64,000 nt of DNA from Limnochorda pilosa (GTDB taxonomy: Bacteria; Bacillota; Limnochordia; Limnochordales; Limnochordaceae): positions 1,798,001 to 1,862,000 of the forward strand of contig NZ_AP014924.1 in assembly GCF_001544015.1 (NCBI RefSeq), written 5' to 3'. The notes under the pieces were generated by a model. It was not told the origin of the DNA. It saw nothing but the letters and a program-made list of their open reading frames with translations, and searched no databases. The position numbers and the translations under genes are program-made. This document shows positions 3,441-48,506 of this stretch, piece after piece (the first letter of the stretch is position 1; every line of letters begins with the position of its first letter).

Positions 3441-4634
3441 GTGGAGGTGGAGCCGTTGGGCCGTACCTGGCGGGCTTCGCTGGCGGTGCTGGTGGCTGTG
3501 GTGGTCCTGCGTGCCGGGGCCGTTGGGGCGCAGGAGCTGGAGATCCGCTCCAAGGCGGCCGTCCTCATGGACGCTCAGAGCGGTGACGTCTTCTACCGGA
3601 AGAACGAGCACGAGCCGCTCCCCCCCGCGAGCGTCACCAAGGTGATGACCATGGTCCTGGCCCTGGAGGCGCTCCGCGACGGGCGGGTGGGCTGGGACGA
3701 CCTGGTCTCCACCAGCGAATACGCCGCGTCCATGGGGGGCACCCAGATCTGGCTGGAGCCCGGGGAGCAGATGTCCTTCCGCGACCTCTTGTACGCGGTG
3801 GCCGTCGGCTCGGCCAACGACGCCGCGGTGGCGCTGGCCGAGTACCTGGCCGGGAGCGAGCCGGCCTTCGTCGACCAGATGAACGCCAAGGCTCAGGAGC
3901 TCGGCATGAAGGACACCCGCTTCACCAACCCCAGCGGGCTGCCGCCTGAGGTCCTGGGCAAGAGCGGCCCGCACGTGACCAGCGCCTACGACCTCGCCTT
4001 GCTCTCCCGCTACGCGGTGACCCTTCCCCACTTCCTGGAGATGGTCGCCACCTACGGGCCCTACACCGTGCGCCAGGGAACCGAGGCCGCGGTGGAGCTC
4101 TACAGCTTCAACGACCTCCTTCGAATGTATCAGGGCATGGACGGGATCAAGACGGGTCACACCAACGCGGCGGGGTACTGCCTCGCGGCCACGGCCCAGC
4201 GGGACGGCTTGCGCCTCATCGCGGTCACTCTGGCCGCCTCGACCCGCGCGGAGCGCCAGGCGGACATCACCCGGCTCTTGAACTACGGGTTCAGCCAGTA
4301 CCGGGCCGTGGCGGCGGTGAAGCAGGGGGAGGTCCTCGGCCGCGTCCCCGTGGACCGCGGCGTCCTGGAGACGGTGGAGGCGGTGGCCGCCCGGGACCTC
4401 TTCGTCACCGTACCCCGGGGGACCGCGGCGACCCCCGAGCGGCAGGTGCGCATGGACCCGCGCCCCGCACCGCTCGAAGCCGGCGCACCCGTGGGGGAGG
4501 TCCGGGTCAGCCTGGAGGGGCGGGAGGTGGGCCGTGTCCCCGTGGTGGCCGCCGAGGCGGTGGAGCGGGCGGGGCTGGGGCGCCTGGTCTGGCGGGTGAC
4601 CGAGAAGGCCGTCAACGCCCTTTTCGGCCATTGA
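3441..4634 (+). CDS. dacF: D-alanyl-D-alanine carboxypeptidase (DacF-type)
   Basis: A low-molecular-weight penicillin-binding protein of the S11 family that trims the terminal D-Ala from peptidoglycan stem peptides outside the membrane. The 397 residues begin with a signal peptide (about 1-30, ending AVGA). The serine peptidase motifs follow in order: SVTK at residues 64-67, SAND in the middle, and KTGHT in GIKTGHTNAAGY. A C-terminal beta-rich domain and a short amphipathic tail complete the usual PBP5/DacF architecture. The GTG start lies about 60 bases after pdp. It directly precedes spoIIAA-spoIIAB-sigF, the classic position of dacF in spore formers. Confidence 0.9.
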   Translation: MEVEPLGRTWRASLAVLVAVVVLRAGAVGAQELEIRSKAAVLMDAQSGDVFYRKNEHEPLPPASVTKVMTMVLALEALRDGRVGWDDLVSTSEYAASMGGTQIWLEPGEQMSFRDLLYAVAVGSANDAAVALAEYLAGSEPAFVDQMNAKAQELGMKDTRFTNPSGLPPEVLGKSGPHVTSAYDLALLSRYAVTLPHFLEMVATYGPYTVRQGTEAAVELYSFNDLLRMYQGMDGIKTGHTNAAGYCLAATAQRDGLRLIAVTLAASTRAERQADITRLLNYGFSQYRAVAAVKQGEVLGRVPVDRGVLETVEAVAARDLFVTVPRGTAATPERQVRMDPRPAPLEAGAPVGEVRVSLEGREVGRVPVVAAEAVERAGLGRLVWRVTEKAVNALFGH

Positions 4635-40171: not shown

Positions 40172-41341
40172 GTGCACCAGGCGGAGCGGTTGAAGCAGCT
40201 TCCCCCCTACCTGTTCGCGCGGCTGGACCGGAAGGTGGCCGAGGCCCGGAAGCGGGGCGTGGACGTGATCAGCTTCGGGATCGGCGACCCGGACCGGCCC
40301 ACCCCCGAGCCTGTGGTACGGCGCCTGCAGGAGGCGGCCACCGAGCCTGCCTTCCACCGGTATCCCCCCTACGAGGGTTCGGCCCGCCTCCGGCAGGCGG
40401 CCGCCCGCTTCATGGAGCGCCGCTTCGGCGTCGGGCTCGACCCGGACCGGGAGGTTCTGGCCCTCATCGGCTCCAAGGAGGGGGTGGCCCACCTCCCCCT
40501 GGCCCTGGTGGATCCCGGCAGCGTGGTCCTGGTGCCCGAACCGGGCTATCCCGTCTATGCCGCGGGCGCCATCCTGGCCGGCGGCGAACCCTACCCCCTG
40601 CCGCTGCACGCGGAGCGGGGCTACCTTCCCGACCTGACCTCGGTCCCCCAGGAGGTGCTGGCCCGCACCCGTCTCCTCTGGCTCAACTACCCCAACAACC
40701 CCACCGGCGCCACCGCATCCCCGGCCTTCTTCGCGGAGGCGGTGGCCCTGGCACGCCGGTACGACTTCCTGGTTGCCCACGACGCCGCGTACAGCGAGGT
40801 GGCCTTCGACGGCTACCGGGCGCCCAGCATCCTGCAGGTGGAGGGCGCCCGCGACGTGGCGCTCGAGATCCACTCCCTCTCCAAGACCTTCAACATGACC
40901 GGCTGGCGCCTGGGATGGGCGTGCGGCGCTCCCCAGGCGGTGGAAGCCCTGGCCCAGCTCAAGAGCAACCTGGACTCGGGCGCCTTCCTGGCCGTCCAGG
41001 AGGCGGGGGCCGAGGCCCTGGACCGGTGGGAGGAGCTGGCCGAGCCGGTGCGTGCCGTCTACCAGGATCGGCGGGACCTGGCCTGCCGCCGCCTGCGGGA
41101 GCTGGGCTGGCCCGTGGAACCGCCCAAGGCCACCTTCTACCTCTGGATCCCGACGCCACCCGGTGTCTCCTCGGCCGCTTTCGCCGAGCGGGTGCTGGAA
41201 GAGACGGGGGTGGTGGTGACGCCGGGCTCGGGGTACGGCCCCGCCGCGGAGGGGAACGTGCGCCTCTCCCTCTGCCTGGAGGCCGGGCGGATCGACGAGG
41301 CCTTCGATCGCTGGGCCCGGGCGGGGATCCGGTTCCGCTGA
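40172..41341 (+). CDS. dapL: LL-diaminopimelate aminotransferase
   Basis: Class I/II PLP aminotransferase of 389 residues that makes LL-diaminopimelate directly from tetrahydrodipicolinate. It shows LPPYLFARLDRKVAEA and ISFGIGDPDRPTPEPVV at the N terminus, YPNNPTGATASPAFF, the PLP lysine in HSLSKTFNMTGWRLGW and the substrate arginine near RLSLCLE. This N terminus and the neighbouring dapF favour DapL over a general aspartate aminotransferase. The GTG at 40172 has a GGAGG site 8 bases upstream. Confidence 0.85.
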   Translation: MHQAERLKQLPPYLFARLDRKVAEARKRGVDVISFGIGDPDRPTPEPVVRRLQEAATEPAFHRYPPYEGSARLRQAAARFMERRFGVGLDPDREVLALIGSKEGVAHLPLALVDPGSVVLVPEPGYPVYAAGAILAGGEPYPLPLHAERGYLPDLTSVPQEVLARTRLLWLNYPNNPTGATASPAFFAEAVALARRYDFLVAHDAAYSEVAFDGYRAPSILQVEGARDVALEIHSLSKTFNMTGWRLGWACGAPQAVEALAQLKSNLDSGAFLAVQEAGAEALDRWEELAEPVRAVYQDRRDLACRRLRELGWPVEPPKATFYLWIPTPPGVSSAAFAERVLEETGVVVTPGSGYGPAAEGNVRLSLCLEAGRIDEAFDRWARAGIRFR

Positions 41342-41620
41342 TCGCGGGCAGGAATCCGGCCGCCCCCGTAGAAAGGAACCCACCAACGCCGTCCCTCGCG
41401 AAGAGCCGCGGGGGAGGCCGGGGACCCAACCCCGGCCGGAGCTCGAAACCGCCGGCGCCCCACCGGGGTGCGGCGATCGGGCCGGCGAGAGCAGAGCCTA
41501 GTGTAGCCGAGCAGAGCCAGAGCCGAGGCCGACGGACCCGCACGTCCCCTTTTCCGTGGTCTCATCCGGGCTGCAGGTTGGCCCTTCCTCTGGTCTCCGG
41601 CGCGAAGGGAGCGCCGCGAC
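41342..41620 (+). other. trp operon leader region
   Basis: This 279-base gap before trpE holds no recognised gene. Its first half is GC-rich with short inverted repeats. The central part (41489-41533) carries the regularly spaced GAG/TAG triplets described separately. The last part contains GGAC-CCGCAC-GTCC followed by CCTTTT at 41534-41553, which might be a weak attenuator hairpin. No T-box or Trp-rich leader peptide was found. Confidence 0.6.
41489..41533 (+). promoter_or_regulatory. TRAP (MtrB)-type RNA-binding site in the trp leader
   Basis: Eight perfect (G/T)AG triplets occur at 41489, 41494, 41499, 41504, 41509, 41514, 41520 and 41525, with spacers of 2, 2, 2, 2, 2, 3 and 2 bases; a ninth imperfect GAC is at 41531. 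TRAP, the tryptophan-activated 11-subunit ring of Bacillus, binds 9-11 GAG/UAG triplets spaced by 2-3 bases, usually in front of trpE. The location 90 bases before trpE fits. The mtrB gene itself is not in the window. Confidence 0.75.
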
Positions 41621-43201
41621 GTGTCCCACCCACCCCGCGCGGGCGTGCTGCCCGCGGTCTGGCCCGACCGTTCCACCTTCCGCAGCCTGGCGCTGCGGCA
41701 CAACCTGATCCCCCTCTGCCGGATGGAGCTGGCCGACACCGAGACCCCTGTCTCCACCCTTCTTCACCTGGGGGAGCACCCGCGCACCTTCCTCCTGGAA
41801 AGTGCCGAGGGGAACGAGCGGGTGGGCCGCCACTCCTTCCTGGGAGCGGGCGGCGAGGCCTGGCTCGAGGCCCGGGGGCCCGGGCTCTTCCTCTGCCGGG
41901 AGGACGGCGAGGAGATCCTGCACGAAGGGGACCCCCTGGACGGCGTGCGCGCCTGGCTCCGGCGCTTCTCGCCGGCGCCCGTGCCGGGGCTGCCCCCCTT
42001 CGCGGGGGGCCTCGTGGGCCGTTTCGCCTACGACCTGGTGCGCCGCTGGGAGCCGGTTGGGGCCCGGCGGGAGAGCGACCTCCCCGAGCTGCGGTTGCTG
42101 GTGGTCGACCGGCTCCTCGCCTTCGACCACCTCCGCCACACCCTGCAGGGCGTGGTCCACCTCCACCTGCGCCCCGGGGAGGATCCCAACGCCCGGTACC
42201 GCGACGGGGTCGACGCGCTGGAGGAGCTCTTCGCCCAGGCCAGGGGGCAGGTTCCGGCCGCGGCGGCGGGGGAGCCCCCGCATTCCGGCGCCTCCCCGCG
42301 GGCCGCCGCGGCGCCGGTCCGACCGGGCGGCCATGCTCCCGTGGCTTCGGGCCTCCCGGACGGCTGGCGGCCCAACGTCTCCCGGGGGGCCTTCGAGGAG
42401 GCGGTGCGGCAAGCCAAGGAGGCCATCGCAGCCGGCGAGGCCTTCCAGATCGTCCTGAGCCAGGCTTTCCGGCGCCCCGTCGGCGTCCCGCCCCTGGCCG
42501 TCTACCGGGTGCTCCGCCACCTGAACCCGTCACCCTACCTCTTCTACCTGCGGATGGGGGAGGAGAGCCTCTGCGGTTCCTCGCCCGAGATGATGGCCCG
42601 CCTGCAGGGCGAGCGGGCCGAGCTCCGCCCCATCGCCGGGACCCGGCCCCGGGGCGGAACCGAGGCCGAAGACCTGAGGTTCGAACGGGAGCTGCGGGCG
42701 GACGCGAAGGAGCGGGCCGAGCACGCGATGCTGGTGGACCTGGGGCGGAACGACCTGGGCCGGGTGGCCCGTTTCGGCAGCGTGCGGGTGGACCGGCTCA
42801 TGACGGTGGAGCGCTTCTCGCACGTGATGCACCTGGTCTCGTACCTCTCCGCCCGGATGCGCCCCGGCCTGGACGCGCTGGACCTGCTCCGGGCGACCTT
42901 CCCGGCGGGTACCGTCAGCGGCGCCCCCAAGGTGCGGGCCATGCAGATCATCGACGGTCTGGAGCCCGAGCCGCGGGGCGCGTACGCCGGCGCCGTGGGG
43001 TACCTGGACTTTGCCGGGAACATGGACAGCTGCATCACCATCCGCACCCTCCATGTGCGGCGGGGCCAGGCGACGGTGCAGGCAGGGGCGGGGATCGTGG
43101 CCGACTCGGACCCGGCCCGGGAGTACCAGGAGTCGGTGAACAAGGCCCGCGCCCTCTTCGAGGCGGTGGCACGGGCCGAAAGGGGAGGCGAGCTCGGATG
43201 A
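41621..43201 (+). CDS. trpE: anthranilate synthase component I
   Basis: Converts chorismate plus ammonia (from TrpG) to anthranilate. The 526 residues contain the LLES feedback motif (FLLESAEGNERVGRHSF), the catalytic blocks GEAFQIVLSQAFRR, FCGSSPE-like LCGSSPEMM, PIAGTRPRGG, LVDLGRNDLGRV and GAPKVRAMQIIDGLE. The GTG start follows GAAGGGAG. It is the first gene of a seven-gene operon, and its TGA overlaps the trpG ATG. Confidence 0.94.
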   Translation: MSHPPRAGVLPAVWPDRSTFRSLALRHNLIPLCRMELADTETPVSTLLHLGEHPRTFLLESAEGNERVGRHSFLGAGGEAWLEARGPGLFLCREDGEEILHEGDPLDGVRAWLRRFSPAPVPGLPPFAGGLVGRFAYDLVRRWEPVGARRESDLPELRLLVVDRLLAFDHLRHTLQGVVHLHLRPGEDPNARYRDGVDALEELFAQARGQVPAAAAGEPPHSGASPRAAAAPVRPGGHAPVASGLPDGWRPNVSRGAFEEAVRQAKEAIAAGEAFQIVLSQAFRRPVGVPPLAVYRVLRHLNPSPYLFYLRMGEESLCGSSPEMMARLQGERAELRPIAGTRPRGGTEAEDLRFERELRADAKERAEHAMLVDLGRNDLGRVARFGSVRVDRLMTVERFSHVMHLVSYLSARMRPGLDALDLLRATFPAGTVSGAPKVRAMQIIDGLEPEPRGAYAGAVGYLDFAGNMDSCITIRTLHVRRGQATVQAGAGIVADSDPAREYQESVNKARALFEAVARAERGGELG

Positions 43202-43851
43202 TCCTGGTCATCGACAACTACGACTCCTTCACCTACAACCTGGTGCAGCTCCTGGGAGGCATGGGGGCCGATCTGGCGGTGGTCCGGAACGACCGGATCA
43301 CGGCCGCCCAGGCGGAGGCCATGGGGCCGGCGGCGATCATCCTCTCGCCCGGCCCCGGTGGGCCTGGGGACGCCGGTGTCTCCCTGGAGACGGTGGCGCG
43401 CCTGGGCCCATCCACGCCCATCCTCGGCGTCTGCCTGGGCCACCAGGTGATCGGCGCGGCCTACGGGGCGCAGGTGGTCCGGGCGGCGGCTCTCGTGCAC
43501 GGCAAGGGTTCCCGGATCCGCCACCGCGGCGGGGGTCTCTACCGGGGCCTGCCCGATCCGCTGGAGGCGGGGCGCTACCACTCGCTGGTGGTGAGCCCCG
43601 AGGGGTTGCCGGACTCCCTGGAGGTGACGGCCTGGACCGAGGACGGGCTGATCATGGGCCTCCGGCACCGGGTGCACCCGGTGGAGGGGGTCCAGTTCCA
43701 CCCCGAGTCGATCCTGACCCGCCAGGGAAGGCGGCTGCTCCGCAACTTCCTGGAGGACGTGGGGGAGACCCGGCACCGCAGGGGGAGCGTCTCGGGCGCC
43801 GGGGTGGAGGAGGCGCATCAGGTCACGGAAGAGAGGGTGAACGCGCGATGA
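43198..43851 (+). CDS. trpG: anthranilate synthase component II (glutamine amidotransferase)
   Basis: Hydrolyses glutamine and passes ammonia to TrpE; it may also serve PabB in folate synthesis. The 217 residues start MILVIDNYDSFTYNLVQLL and contain the catalytic Cys79 in GVCLGHQ and the His-Glu pair in VQFHPESIL. A C-terminal tail of about 25 residues is not conserved. Overlaps of 4 bases with trpE and trpD indicate coupled translation. Confidence 0.92.
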   Translation: MILVIDNYDSFTYNLVQLLGGMGADLAVVRNDRITAAQAEAMGPAAIILSPGPGGPGDAGVSLETVARLGPSTPILGVCLGHQVIGAAYGAQVVRAAALVHGKGSRIRHRGGGLYRGLPDPLEAGRYHSLVVSPEGLPDSLEVTAWTEDGLIMGLRHRVHPVEGVQFHPESILTRQGRRLLRNFLEDVGETRHRRGSVSGAGVEEAHQVTEERVNAR

Positions 43852-44882
43852 TCCGGGAGGCCATCGGCCGTCTGGTGGCCGGCGAGCGGCTGGCCGAGGA
43901 CGAGGCGGCCCAGGTGATGGAGGAGATCATGACGGGCGGCGCCCAGGAAGCCCAGGTGGCAGGGTACCTCACGGCGCTCCGGCTGCGGGGCGAGACGGTG
44001 GAGGTGATCACGGGCTCCGCCCGGGCCATGCGGGAGAAGGCGGTGCGCATCCAGCCCAAGGTGGAGCCTCTGGTGGACACCTGCGGAACCGGAGGCGACG
44101 GGGCGGGGACCATCAACATCTCCACCGCGGCCGCGCTGGTGGCCGCGGGCGCGGGGGTGAAGGTGGCCAAGCACGGGAACCGGGGCGTCTCCAGCCCGTC
44201 GGGCAGCGCCGACGTCCTGGAAGCGCTGGGGGTGCGGGTGGACCTGGAGCCCGAGGAGGCCCGCCGCTGCATCGAGGAGGTGGGGATCGGCTTCCTCTTC
44301 GCCCCCCGCTACCACCCCGGCATGCGCTTCGCCGCCCCCACCCGCAAGGCCCTGGGCATCCGGACCCTCTTCAACCTGCTGGGCCCCCTGGCCAACCCGG
44401 CTGGAGCGGATCGCCAGGTGATGGGCGTCTTCGATGGGGCATGGGTCGAGCCGGTCGCCCGGGTGCTGGCCCGCCTCGGCTGCCGGGAGGCGATGGTGGT
44501 CCACGGCCTGGACGGCACCGACGAGCTCAGCATCTCGGGGCCCACCCGGGTGGCCCACCTGCGGGAGGGCGCCGTCCACGCCCACACCCTGGAGCCCGAG
44601 GATGCAGGTCTCACGCGGCACCCTCCCGCGGCCGTCCGGGGCGGCAGCCCCCAGGAGAACGCCCGGCGGATCCGCCGGGTGCTGGAGGGAAGCCGCGACG
44701 ACGAAGCCGTCCGGGACGTGGTGCTCCTCAACGCCGCGGCCGCCCTGGTGGTGGCCGGCCGGGCCGCCAGCCTGCGGGACGGGGTGGGCCAGGCGGCGGG
44801 CGCGATCGACTCCGGGGCGGCCTGGGAGCGCCTGGAGGCCCTCCGGCGGTTCACGGGCGCCCCCCCGGAGGCGGTGGCATGA
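43848..44882 (+). CDS. trpD: anthranilate phosphoribosyltransferase
   Basis: Joins anthranilate to phosphoribosyl pyrophosphate. The 344 residues show the conserved DTCGTGGDG loop, NISTAAALVAAGAGVKVAKHGNR split over the active site, and LGIRTLFNLLGPLANPA. The family length is about 340. The ATG overlaps the trpG stop and the stop overlaps the trpC start. Confidence 0.94.
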   Translation: MIREAIGRLVAGERLAEDEAAQVMEEIMTGGAQEAQVAGYLTALRLRGETVEVITGSARAMREKAVRIQPKVEPLVDTCGTGGDGAGTINISTAAALVAAGAGVKVAKHGNRGVSSPSGSADVLEALGVRVDLEPEEARRCIEEVGIGFLFAPRYHPGMRFAAPTRKALGIRTLFNLLGPLANPAGADRQVMGVFDGAWVEPVARVLARLGCREAMVVHGLDGTDELSISGPTRVAHLREGAVHAHTLEPEDAGLTRHPPAAVRGGSPQENARRIRRVLEGSRDDEAVRDVVLLNAAAALVVAGRAASLRDGVGQAAGAIDSGAAWERLEALRRFTGAPPEAVA

Positions 44883-45700
44883 GCTTCCTGGAGCAGATCC
44901 GGCGGGAGAAGGCGCAGGAGGTGGTCCGATGGCAGGCGAGGCTTCCCATGGGCCGCATGGAGGCGCTCGCCCGGCGGTCGCCCGCCCCCCGTTCGCTCGA
45001 GGGCGCCCTGCGGGCGGCGGGCGTCCCGGCGGTCATCGCCGAGCTGAAGCAGGCGTCCCCTTCGACGGGCTGGATCCGCCGCCAGGCAGACCCCGCAGCC
45101 CTGGCCCGGCGCTACCAGAGGGCCGGTGCGGCCGCGCTCTCGGTGTTGACGGACCGCCGGCATTTCCGGGGGAGCCTGGCCCGGCTCCGGGCGGTGCGCG
45201 CCGCCACGACGCTGCCCGTGCTTCGCAAGGACTTCCATCTGGAACCCTACCAGCTCGTCCAGGCCCGGGCGGCCGGGGCCGACGCGGTGCTCGTGATCGT
45301 GGCGCTCCTCTCCGATGCCGCCCTGGGCGAGCTTCTCGCCGTGACCCGCCGCCTGGGGATGGAGGCGCTGGTGGAGGTCCACCGGGAAGAGGAACTCGGC
45401 CGGGCGCTCGCGGCGGGGGCCCGGCTCCTCGGGGTGAACAACCGCGACCTGGACCGACTGGAAACCTCGCTGGAGGCAGGCGCGCGCTTGCTGCCCCAGG
45501 TCCCGGCCCCGTGCCTGGCCGTGGCCGAGAGCGGCCTCCGGACCCCCGCCGACGTGGCGGCCATGGTGCGGGCGGGCGCCCGGGCCGTTCTGGTGGGCGA
45601 GGCCCTCTCCCGCAGCGGGGAGCCCGAGAGCCTCCTGGCCGCGTTCCGGGAGGTGGGGAAGGATGCGGGTGAAGCTCTGCGGGCTCAAGCGGGCGGGTGA
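44879..45700 (+). CDS. trpC: indole-3-glycerol phosphate synthase
   Basis: Closes the indole ring from carboxyphenylamino-deoxyribulose phosphate. The 273-residue TIM barrel shows VIAELKQASPSTGWIR, LSVLTDRRHFRGS, LPVLRKDFHLEPYQL, LLGVNNRDLDRLE and AVAESGLRTPADV. These hold the catalytic lysines and glutamates. It overlaps trpD by 4 bases and trpF by 38 bases. Confidence 0.94.
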   Translation: MSFLEQIRREKAQEVVRWQARLPMGRMEALARRSPAPRSLEGALRAAGVPAVIAELKQASPSTGWIRRQADPAALARRYQRAGAAALSVLTDRRHFRGSLARLRAVRAATTLPVLRKDFHLEPYQLVQARAAGADAVLVIVALLSDAALGELLAVTRRLGMEALVEVHREEELGRALAAGARLLGVNNRDLDRLETSLEAGARLLPQVPAPCLAVAESGLRTPADVAAMVRAGARAVLVGEALSRSGEPESLLAAFREVGKDAGEALRAQAGG

Positions 45701-46322
45701 GGTCCGCCTGGCAGCCGAGCTTGGGGCCTGGGCGTGCGGCTTCGTCTTCCACCCGCCCAGTCCCCGCCACCTGTCGGTGAGGGAGGCGGCGTCGCTGAGC
45801 CGCGAGGCCGAAGGACTTGTACGGGTGGGGGTCTTTGCCCGGCAGGAGGTGGAGGCGATCCTGTGGATCGCGGACCGGGTAGGCCTGGACGCGGTGCAGC
45901 TCCACCGCCCGTGGCGGCCGGAGGAGGTCACCCGCCTCCAGCGGGCGGGCCTGCAGGTGATCGGGCTCGTCCGGCCCGGCGCCGTGCCGGGTGGGGACCC
46001 CTGGTGCCAGGGGCCGCGGCCCGACCTCTGGCTGGTGGAGCCCGAGGCGGGCGGGATGGGAGGCACAGGGGTGGCGCGGGACTGGGCCGCCCTGGCCGCG
46101 CGGATGGTGGGCACGGCGTTTCCCAGGCCCATGCTTCTGGCCGGTGGGCTGACGCCCGAGAACGTGACCGCAGCGGCGGAGGCCTTGGAGCCCGAGGGGG
46201 TCGACGTTTCCAGCGGAATCGAGAAGGCGCCGGGCCTCAAGGATCCCGGCAGGATGCGAGCCTTCATGGAGAGGGTGGCGGAGATCGATGCCCAGCGAGC
46301 TGGACGTGCCGGTGGCGGATGA
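45663..46322 (+). CDS. trpF: phosphoribosylanthranilate isomerase
   Basis: Amadori isomerase of the tryptophan pathway. The 219 residues start [17 protein letters not shown], with the catalytic cysteine in KLCGL, and contain [10 protein letters not shown] and the phosphate loop [10 protein letters not shown], then [16 protein letters not shown], ending the barrel. The ATG lies inside the end of trpC and the gene end overlaps trpB by 35 bases. Confidence 0.93.
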
Positions 46323-47574
46323 CCTGGAGGACCTCGCGCACGAGGTACGCCGGGCGCTTCGGACGGGGGAAGCCCCCGATGCCGGGGGACACTACGGTCC
46401 TTTCGGGGGGCGATTCGTTCCGGAGACGCTCATGCCGGCCCTGGAAGAGCTGGAGGAAGCCTTCCGCGCCGCCCTGGCGGACCGGGCGTTCCAGGAAGAG
46501 CTGGCGGGGCTGCTGCGCGAGTACGTGGGGCGCCCCACCCCCCTCACCGAGGCCCGCCGACTCGGCCAGGCCTCGCGCGGCGCCCGGATCTTCCTCAAGC
46601 GGGAGGACCTGAACCACACGGGCGCCCACAAGATCAACAACGCGGTCGGCCAGGCCCTTCTCGCCCGGCGGATGGGGAAGCGGCGCCTCATCGCCGAGAC
46701 GGGTGCGGGCCAGCACGGGGTAGCCACCGCCACCGCGGCGGCGCTTCTGGGCCTGGAGTGCGAGGTCTTCATGGGCGAGCGGGACATGGCCCGCCAGGCG
46801 CTGAACGTCTTCCGCATGGAGCTCCTGGGAGCGAGGGTGGTGCCCGTCAGGGGCGGTTCGGCCACCCTGAAAGAGGCGGTGAACGAGGCCATTCGCGACT
46901 GGGTGGCCCGGGTGCGGGACACGCACTACTGTATCGGATCCGTGGTGGGACCCCATCCTTATCCTTGGATGGTGCAGCGCTTCCAGGCGATCATCGGGGT
47001 GGAAGCCCGGCGCCAGGTCCTGGAGGCCGCCGGGCGGCTGCCCGACGCGGTGGTGGCCTGCGTGGGCGGTGGTTCCAACGCGATCGGCATCTTCAGCGGC
47101 TTCCTGGAGGATCCGGGCGTGGAGCTGGTGGGGGTGGAGGCAGCGGGGAGAGGGATCGCTAGTGGGGAGCACGCGGCCAGCCTCGGCGCCGGCCGGCCCG
47201 GGGTGCTCCACGGGAGCCGGAGCTACCTGCTGCAGGACGGGGACGGCCAGGTGCACGAGGCGTACTCCATCTCGGCGGGCCTCGACTACCCGGGTGTCGG
47301 CCCCGAGCACGCGCTCCTGAAGGAGGCGGGTCGCGCCCGGTATGTCTCCGCGGACGACCAGGAAGCCCTCGCGGCCTTCCACAGGCTGGCCCGTCTGGAG
47401 GGGATCGTTCCCGCCCTGGAGAGCGCCCACGCGGTCGCCTACGCCACCCGGCTCGCGGCGGCGCTGGGGCCCAACGCCGTGGTGCTGGTCAACCTGTCCG
47501 GACGGGGTGACAAGGACGTGGCTGAGGTGGCCCGCCTGCAGGGACCGACCCGGGGCGAGGGGGAGGAAGGATGA
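46288..47574 (+). CDS. trpB: tryptophan synthase beta chain
   Basis: PLP enzyme that condenses indole with serine. The 428 residues contain [16 protein letters not shown], the PLP lysine in [16 protein letters not shown] (Lys115), [20 protein letters not shown] and the phosphate-binding [10 protein letters not shown]. This is the TrpB1 type that works with TrpA, encoded directly downstream. The stop overlaps the trpA ATG. Confidence 0.95.
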
Positions 47575-48506
47575 GCCGCGAGCGGATCGAGCGTCGCTTC
47601 GAGCAGGCACGGGCGGCTGGCCGGGCCGCCTTCATGCCCTACCTGACCCTGGGGTACCCCCGGCCGGCCGCTTCGCTGGAGGTGATCAACGGGCTGCTGG
47701 CGGGCGGGGCGGACCTCCTGGAGCTGGGGATCCCCTTCTCCGATCCCCTGGCGGACGGGCCCGTCCTCCAGGCCGCAGCCCAGCAGGCCCTGGCCGCTGG
47801 CACCACGGTGGCTACGGCGCTGGACCTGGTGGCCCGGGTGCGGGACCAAGCCCCCGACGTGCCCCTGGTCCTCCTGGTCTACGCGAACACCGTGAGCGCC
47901 CGGGGCGGCGAGCGCTTCGCGCGGGAGGCGGCCGAGGCAGGGGCGGACGGTGTCATCCTGCCCGACTGGCCGCCCGACGAGGCGGGCGGGCTTCTCGCAG
48001 CCCTCCAGGCGGCGGGGCTGGCCTACGTGGGCCTGGTGAGCCCCGTCAGCTCCGAATCCCGCCTCGCGCGGGTGGCTGCGGCCTCCCAGGGGTTCCTCTA
48101 CGCGGTCTCAGTGACGGGCGTCACGGGCGAGCGGCAGGGGCTCTCGGAAGAGCTGGCCCCCCTCGCACGGCGGCTTCGCAGCGTGAGCCCCCTTCCCATC
48201 GCGGCCGGCTTCGGCATCGGCCGGCCGGAGGATGCCCGGGCGGCCGCCCGCCACTGCGACGGCGTCATCGTGGGGAGCGCCCTTGCCCGGCGGTTGAGCG
48301 AGGCAGGGGACCGGCCTCCGGGGGCCCTGGCCGAAACCTTCGCCCGCTCCTTCCGGGAGGCCCTCATACCCGAAGAAGACCCCCAGCTCCCGGAGCGACC
48401 GCCACAGCATGCGGGCGAGCCCCATCCGGAGAGGTCCGTGACGGGACCGCCAGCAGGAGTCTCAGGGGCGGCCCTTGAACCCCCAGGCGGGAGGGAGTGG
48501 GTGTGA
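47571..48506 (+). CDS. trpA: tryptophan synthase alpha chain
   Basis: Cleaves indole-3-glycerol phosphate to indole for TrpB. The TIM barrel shows [30 protein letters not shown] (the catalytic Glu and Asp) and [28 protein letters not shown]. At 311 residues it is about 45 longer than usual; the extra C terminus is proline-rich and unconserved, and overlaps the next small gene by 4 bases. It is the last trp gene. Confidence 0.93.

Follow-up and report, generated by a model that had tools for sequence, protein, structure and literature searches.

Does tryptophan control the trp operon of this Limnochordia genome through TRAP, the tryptophan-sensing protein of Bacillus, and, if so, would that control fall on transcription or on translation? 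The question is raised by the trpE leader in the 64,000-nt stretch of DNA analysed here (the window), for which an earlier note had proposed a TRAP-binding array followed by a possible attenuator hairpin. The window belongs to a genome (G000) of 3,817,036 bases in one contig with very high GC.

Results

A triplet array in the leader of a compact trp operon

The leader opens onto a compact cluster, trpEGDCFBA, with overlapping genes and trpE in first place (Table 1). The trpE score of 489 bits lies under the TIGR00564 family cut-off of 517.7, and the genes from trpD to trpA span 43848..48506.

Table 1. Genes and leader features of the trp region (window positions).
Feature	Position	Strand	Basis or remark
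LL-diaminopimelate aminotransferase gene	40172..41341	+	NF006756, 558 bits, over cut-off; leader starts after it
TRAP-binding array (predicted)	41489..41527	+	8 GAG/UAG triplets; register kept in G001
Stem, last triplet GAGGCC (41525-41530) with GGUCUC (41558-41563)	41525..41563	+	GAGACC/GGUCUC in G001
Proposed switch segment CCCUUCCUCUGG	41582..41593	+	kept as CCCTTyCTCTGG in G001; folding
Hairpin CGGCGC-GAAGGGA-GCGCCG, trpE Shine-Dalgarno in loop	41598..41616	+	19/19 bases identical in G001
trpE, anthranilate synthase component I	41621..43201	+	GTG start; TIGR00564 489 bits, E 1e-146
trpG	43198..43851	+	ATG and MILVIDNYDSF motif; 4-nt overlap with trpE end
trpD	43848..44882	+	ORF translation, by eye
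trpC	to 45700	+	ORF translation, by eye
trpF	45663..46322	+	ORF translation, by eye
trpB	46288..47574	+	ORF translation, by eye
trpA	47571..48506	+	ORF translation, by eye

A script for KAG triplets (K = G or T) located GAG at 41489 and 41494, TAG at 41499 and 41504, and GAG at 41509, 41514, 41520, and 41525, with spacers of 2, 2, 2, 2, 2, 3, and 2 nt. The eight perfect triplets described in the earlier note are thus borne out, with the trpE GTG lying 93 nt downstream of the array end. The array is on the sense strand and intergenic. In 100 simulated 64-kb sequences for each of three Markov orders modelled on the window, the longest triplet chain was usually 3 and reached 4, 5, and 6 for orders 1, 2, and 3, and the chance expectation for eight-triplet chains is about 0.0002–0.0008. 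Across the whole 3.8-Mb genome, matches to a five-triplet pattern were confined to this array; counts from control patterns are not a clean null in such searches, because GAG is identical when read backwards. Taken with the mtrB gene and the conservation described below, we infer, with high confidence, that the array is a site for TRAP.

Two strong GC hairpins, GGCCGGGG/CCCCGGCC and GCCGGCGCCCC/GGGGTGCGGC, stand immediately 5′ of the array at 41418–41474 and are not conserved in the same-genus relative G001. Upstream of the array, the G000 leader showed no match to the sigma-70 consensus promoter; in several relatives TTGACA/TATAAT could be recognized by eye directly before the array.

The regulator is encoded in the genome

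A search of the complete genome for mtrB, the TRAP gene, found a single copy at G000:C1:1523728-1523925 (PF02081, 126.9 bits against a cut-off of 21.3, E 9.4e-37), whose product also scores 130.2 bits against the NCBIfam equivalog NF009724 (cut-off 117) and matches solved TRAP structures at E 3e-54. In our MtrB alignment the equivalents of B. subtilis T25, T30, K37, S53, K56, and R58 all fall in invariant columns; K37, K56, and R58 are the RNA-contact residues of Bacillus TRAP and T25, T30, and S53 those of its tryptophan pocket. Unlike the mtrAB gene pair of Bacillus, mtrB here has no such partner, and by eye its neighbours resemble pgpA and accD.

The class sample contains mtrB in 46 of 61 genomes, this one counted, and a wider sampling of the phylum in 200 of 399, including Thermincola, Moorella, Desulfotomaculum-like, and Heliorestis genomes and many Bacillales. 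The presence of TRAP in a deep lineage is therefore no rarity by itself, and the family is not new here: the earlier note was right that the system is present, but its surprise at the lineage was greater than these counts warrant. No anti-TRAP gene matched above cut-off among the 61 genomes; weak matches fall inside ORFs of about 370–420 aa, which are presumably other cysteine-rich zinc proteins such as DnaJ.

Conservation of the array and of the elements downstream

The closest relative, the same-genus G001, has the array in common register over eight triplets, with AAG at two of them, and keeps even the odd 3-nt spacer, CCA, before the seventh. Of the 18 trpE leaders in the class that lack a T-box, 15 carry at least five consecutive triplets, and up to nine; the opposite strand of class trpE leaders has two at most, and shuffled sequences give averages of about 1.3–2.1. 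Together with the genomic mtrB, this persistence of register and spacing supports TRAP control of the trp leader, as the earlier note had suggested.

The particular leader type of G000 is known from two species, G000 and G001, between which no two-sided compensatory change was found. Both share GGTCTCA, CCCTTyCTCTGG, and, directly before the start codon, CGGCGCGAAGGGAGCGCCGC, while the sequence between the array and these downstream blocks diverges. Within CCCUUCCUCUGG, CCCUUC is complementary to the Shine-Dalgarno (SD) sequence GAAGGG (41604–41609) and CUCUGG to CCAGAG (41517–41522) inside the array. In folding calculations on G000, SD accessibility was 0.81 with the array free to pair and 0.17 with it held unpaired, and 1% of spacer shuffles gave as large a change (shuffle mean 0.09, sd 0.17); the G001 values were 0.85 and 0.48, equalled by 6% of shuffles, and the CCCUUC:GAAGGG pairing was not predicted there. 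The outcome depends on the assumed 5′ end of the leader RNA. When 15 nt of upstream sequence are included, G000 hides the SD even with the array free to pair (0.25 vs 0.30), with 60 or 150 nt of context the effect reappears, and with long flanks the predicted change in G001 reverses. Because of this dependence, the folding result, that an array-bound state would expose the SD-pairing segment, is suggestive only.

Other signals were also sought in the leader. The attenuator named by the earlier note, GGAC-CCGCAC-GTCC-CCTTTT (41534..41553, +), is present as a string, but we rejected it as a terminator: its stem has 4 bp at -5.1 kcal/mol, it is absent in G001, and a terminator scan did not pick it up. 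That scan found no terminator-like site in 41300–41700, and a second one, for a hairpin plus U-tract, found no intrinsic terminator between the array and trpE in G000. No short ORF with Trp codons, as leader-peptide attenuation would have, occurs between 41342 and 41640, and no T-box was found in the window or, in a genome-wide search, at the trpE leader.

Further arrays and T-box leaders

A relaxed pattern search found two further arrays in G000. One (G000:C1:1042897-1042924; L179/L187), of four GAG, a CAG, and a GAG, lies 31 nt before the start of a gene of the tryptophanase/tyrosine phenol-lyase family. Among relatives, a close homologue (83%) of this lyase occurs in G008 only, where six GAG triplets lie 29 nt before the start of the family gene (G008:C70, L188); the more distant homologues examined have three triplets at most. 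Folding of the lyase leaders gave no clear answer on the direction of control. This target is degradative, and the TRAP papers cited here do not name it as a TRAP gene of B. subtilis. The other array (G000:C1:1568383-1568420; L183/L217) precedes the gene of an ECF S component, after which comes that of an ECF ATPase. Only 2 of the 61 genomes have the S component, both with arrays; in the second (G041:C218; L218/L061) one array precedes a hairpin with a T-run and another covers the start. The array-associated ECF system is possibly a tryptophan transporter.

Nine trpE leaders in the class carry an Rfam T-box (RF00230), most of them without an array. In G021 (L051), G054 (L044), and G052 (L053), all with mtrB in the genome, a KAG array downstream of the T-box covers the trpE start region, an apparent case, judged from sequence, of dual control by tRNA-Trp and TRAP on one trpE mRNA. 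In G060 (L050) trpE has a T-box, an array covers the start of trpG, and mtrB was not found in the incomplete assembly. Class arrays also occur at the starts of trpB, trpP-like, trpG, trpD, and trpB-like genes (named by reading translations), often in genomes without a detected trpE. Those lying right over the starts of trpB and of trpP-like membrane protein genes (L058, L059, L060, L064, L069; L062, L067, L068, L070, L071) come mostly from genomes in which trpE was not found, and TRAP seems to have been kept there after loss of most of the tryptophan pathway.

Discussion

From the array, the mtrB gene, and the conserved register and downstream elements, each established directly, we infer TRAP binding, the direction of the switch, and its action on translation, as follows. 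When tryptophan is plentiful, tryptophan-loaded TRAP, the product of the genome's own mtrB, would wrap the GAG/UAG triplets of the trpEGDCFBA leader and disrupt the pairing of the array with GGUCUC and the switch segment; the released CCCUUC would then pair with the SD and block trpE translation. When tryptophan is scarce, the array would pair with both elements and the SD would remain in an open loop. We hold this account as a whole, with MtrB at the array and SD masking of trpE at high tryptophan, to be quite probable, and consider it somewhat likelier than otherwise that control is mainly translational. The earlier note had left attenuation and translational control side by side; masking of the ribosome-binding site fits better, while the attenuator it proposed is unsupported.

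Transcription attenuation is the main rival to translational masking, although we judge it unlikely. Here TRAP would block an antiterminator, and a terminator, the GGAC/GTCC hairpin with CCTTTT or another, would stop the polymerase before trpE. Seven relatives (G002, G008, G011, G013, G015, G016, G030) do have a strong hairpin and U-tract between array and trpE, 127–249 nt upstream of the conserved TrpE D-x-x-T-P codons, and, since the first four belong to the same order as G000, termination by another route is possible in G000 as well. Canonical U-tract terminators are rare, at roughly the shuffled-sequence level, over most of window positions 4001–64000; the genome may therefore depend on termination signals of another kind, and a weak terminator might suffice. 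B. subtilis TRAP can, moreover, cause termination even without the attenuator hairpin, but the site must then be followed directly by A+U-rich sequence (PMC3913778), and the G000 leader has none there. That leader also lacks a terminator-like site, and the hairpin named for the role is the short, unconserved one rejected above.

Another alternative, which we consider improbable, is that TRAP on the array mainly alters RNA stability or access by Rho, with no specific RNA switch. A GC-rich leader without a terminator and the weak fold switch of G001 would suit it, yet CCCTTyCTCTGG and the SD hairpin are strongly kept while their surroundings are not. Scarcely credible is a reading in which the GAG repeats have nothing to do with TRAP and are a low-complexity run arisen by chance or a coding repeat: although long spurious ORFs cross this GC-rich region, the chance expectation is far below one, related arrays stand before trpB, trpP-like, trpG, and trpD genes of other class members, and the strand-specific, intergenic conservation in mtrB-bearing relatives refutes this reading for practical purposes.

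Translational masking by TRAP, if correct, would be one of several output designs for a single regulator in one class, next to a terminator, direct overlap of the ribosome-binding site, and T-box plus TRAP, and the evolution of the attenuation and translation versions of a textbook switch becomes testable. An apparently working TRAP system, as protein and predicted sites, is placed in the Limnochordia, a deep and almost uncultivated class, and a Bacillus-type switch appears far outside Bacillus. We give about even chances to a broader picture, in which the lineage's TRAP reaches beyond the synthesis and uptake known from Bacillus to a tryptophan-degrading enzyme and an ECF transporter, and in which the leader of some relatives reads both free tryptophan and uncharged tRNA directly, without anti-TRAP as an intermediary. 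Less expected within it are the T-box plus TRAP leaders and the tryptophanase target; with tryptophanase and ECF genes as candidate targets, one may also ask whether TRAP ever acts as an activator.

Compared with known systems, the tandem T-box trp leaders sense uncharged tRNA; some relatives use T-boxes for trpE, and the window's leader has none. The nearest comparison is the B. subtilis trpEDCFBA operon, from which the present one differs in having trpG inside the operon, no recognisable attenuator hairpin, no anti-TRAP over cut-off, and very high GC. It also has 8 triplets against 11 in the B. subtilis trp leader, slightly fewer than the 9–11 NAG triplets (mostly GAG/UAG, with 2–3-nt spacers) usual in TRAP sites (PMC4347634). 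B. subtilis TRAP also blocks translation of trpG, trpP, and ycbK, and in relatives of G000 arrays lie over or near the starts of trpG, trpP-like, and trpB genes; in the trpE leader of G000, by contrast, 76 nt lie between the array end and the SD, which means that masking would need RNA structure rather than direct blocking. The likenesses to B. subtilis lie in the protein, of the same family and with contact residues conserved, in GAG/UAG triplets with 2–3-nt spacers at the same place in the trpE leader, and in a downstream segment that here, by complementarity, could mask the SD. Since in B. subtilis TRAP induces an SD-sequestering hairpin at trpE, downstream of its binding site (PMC11255114), the masking proposed here is a known mechanism with a different sequence.
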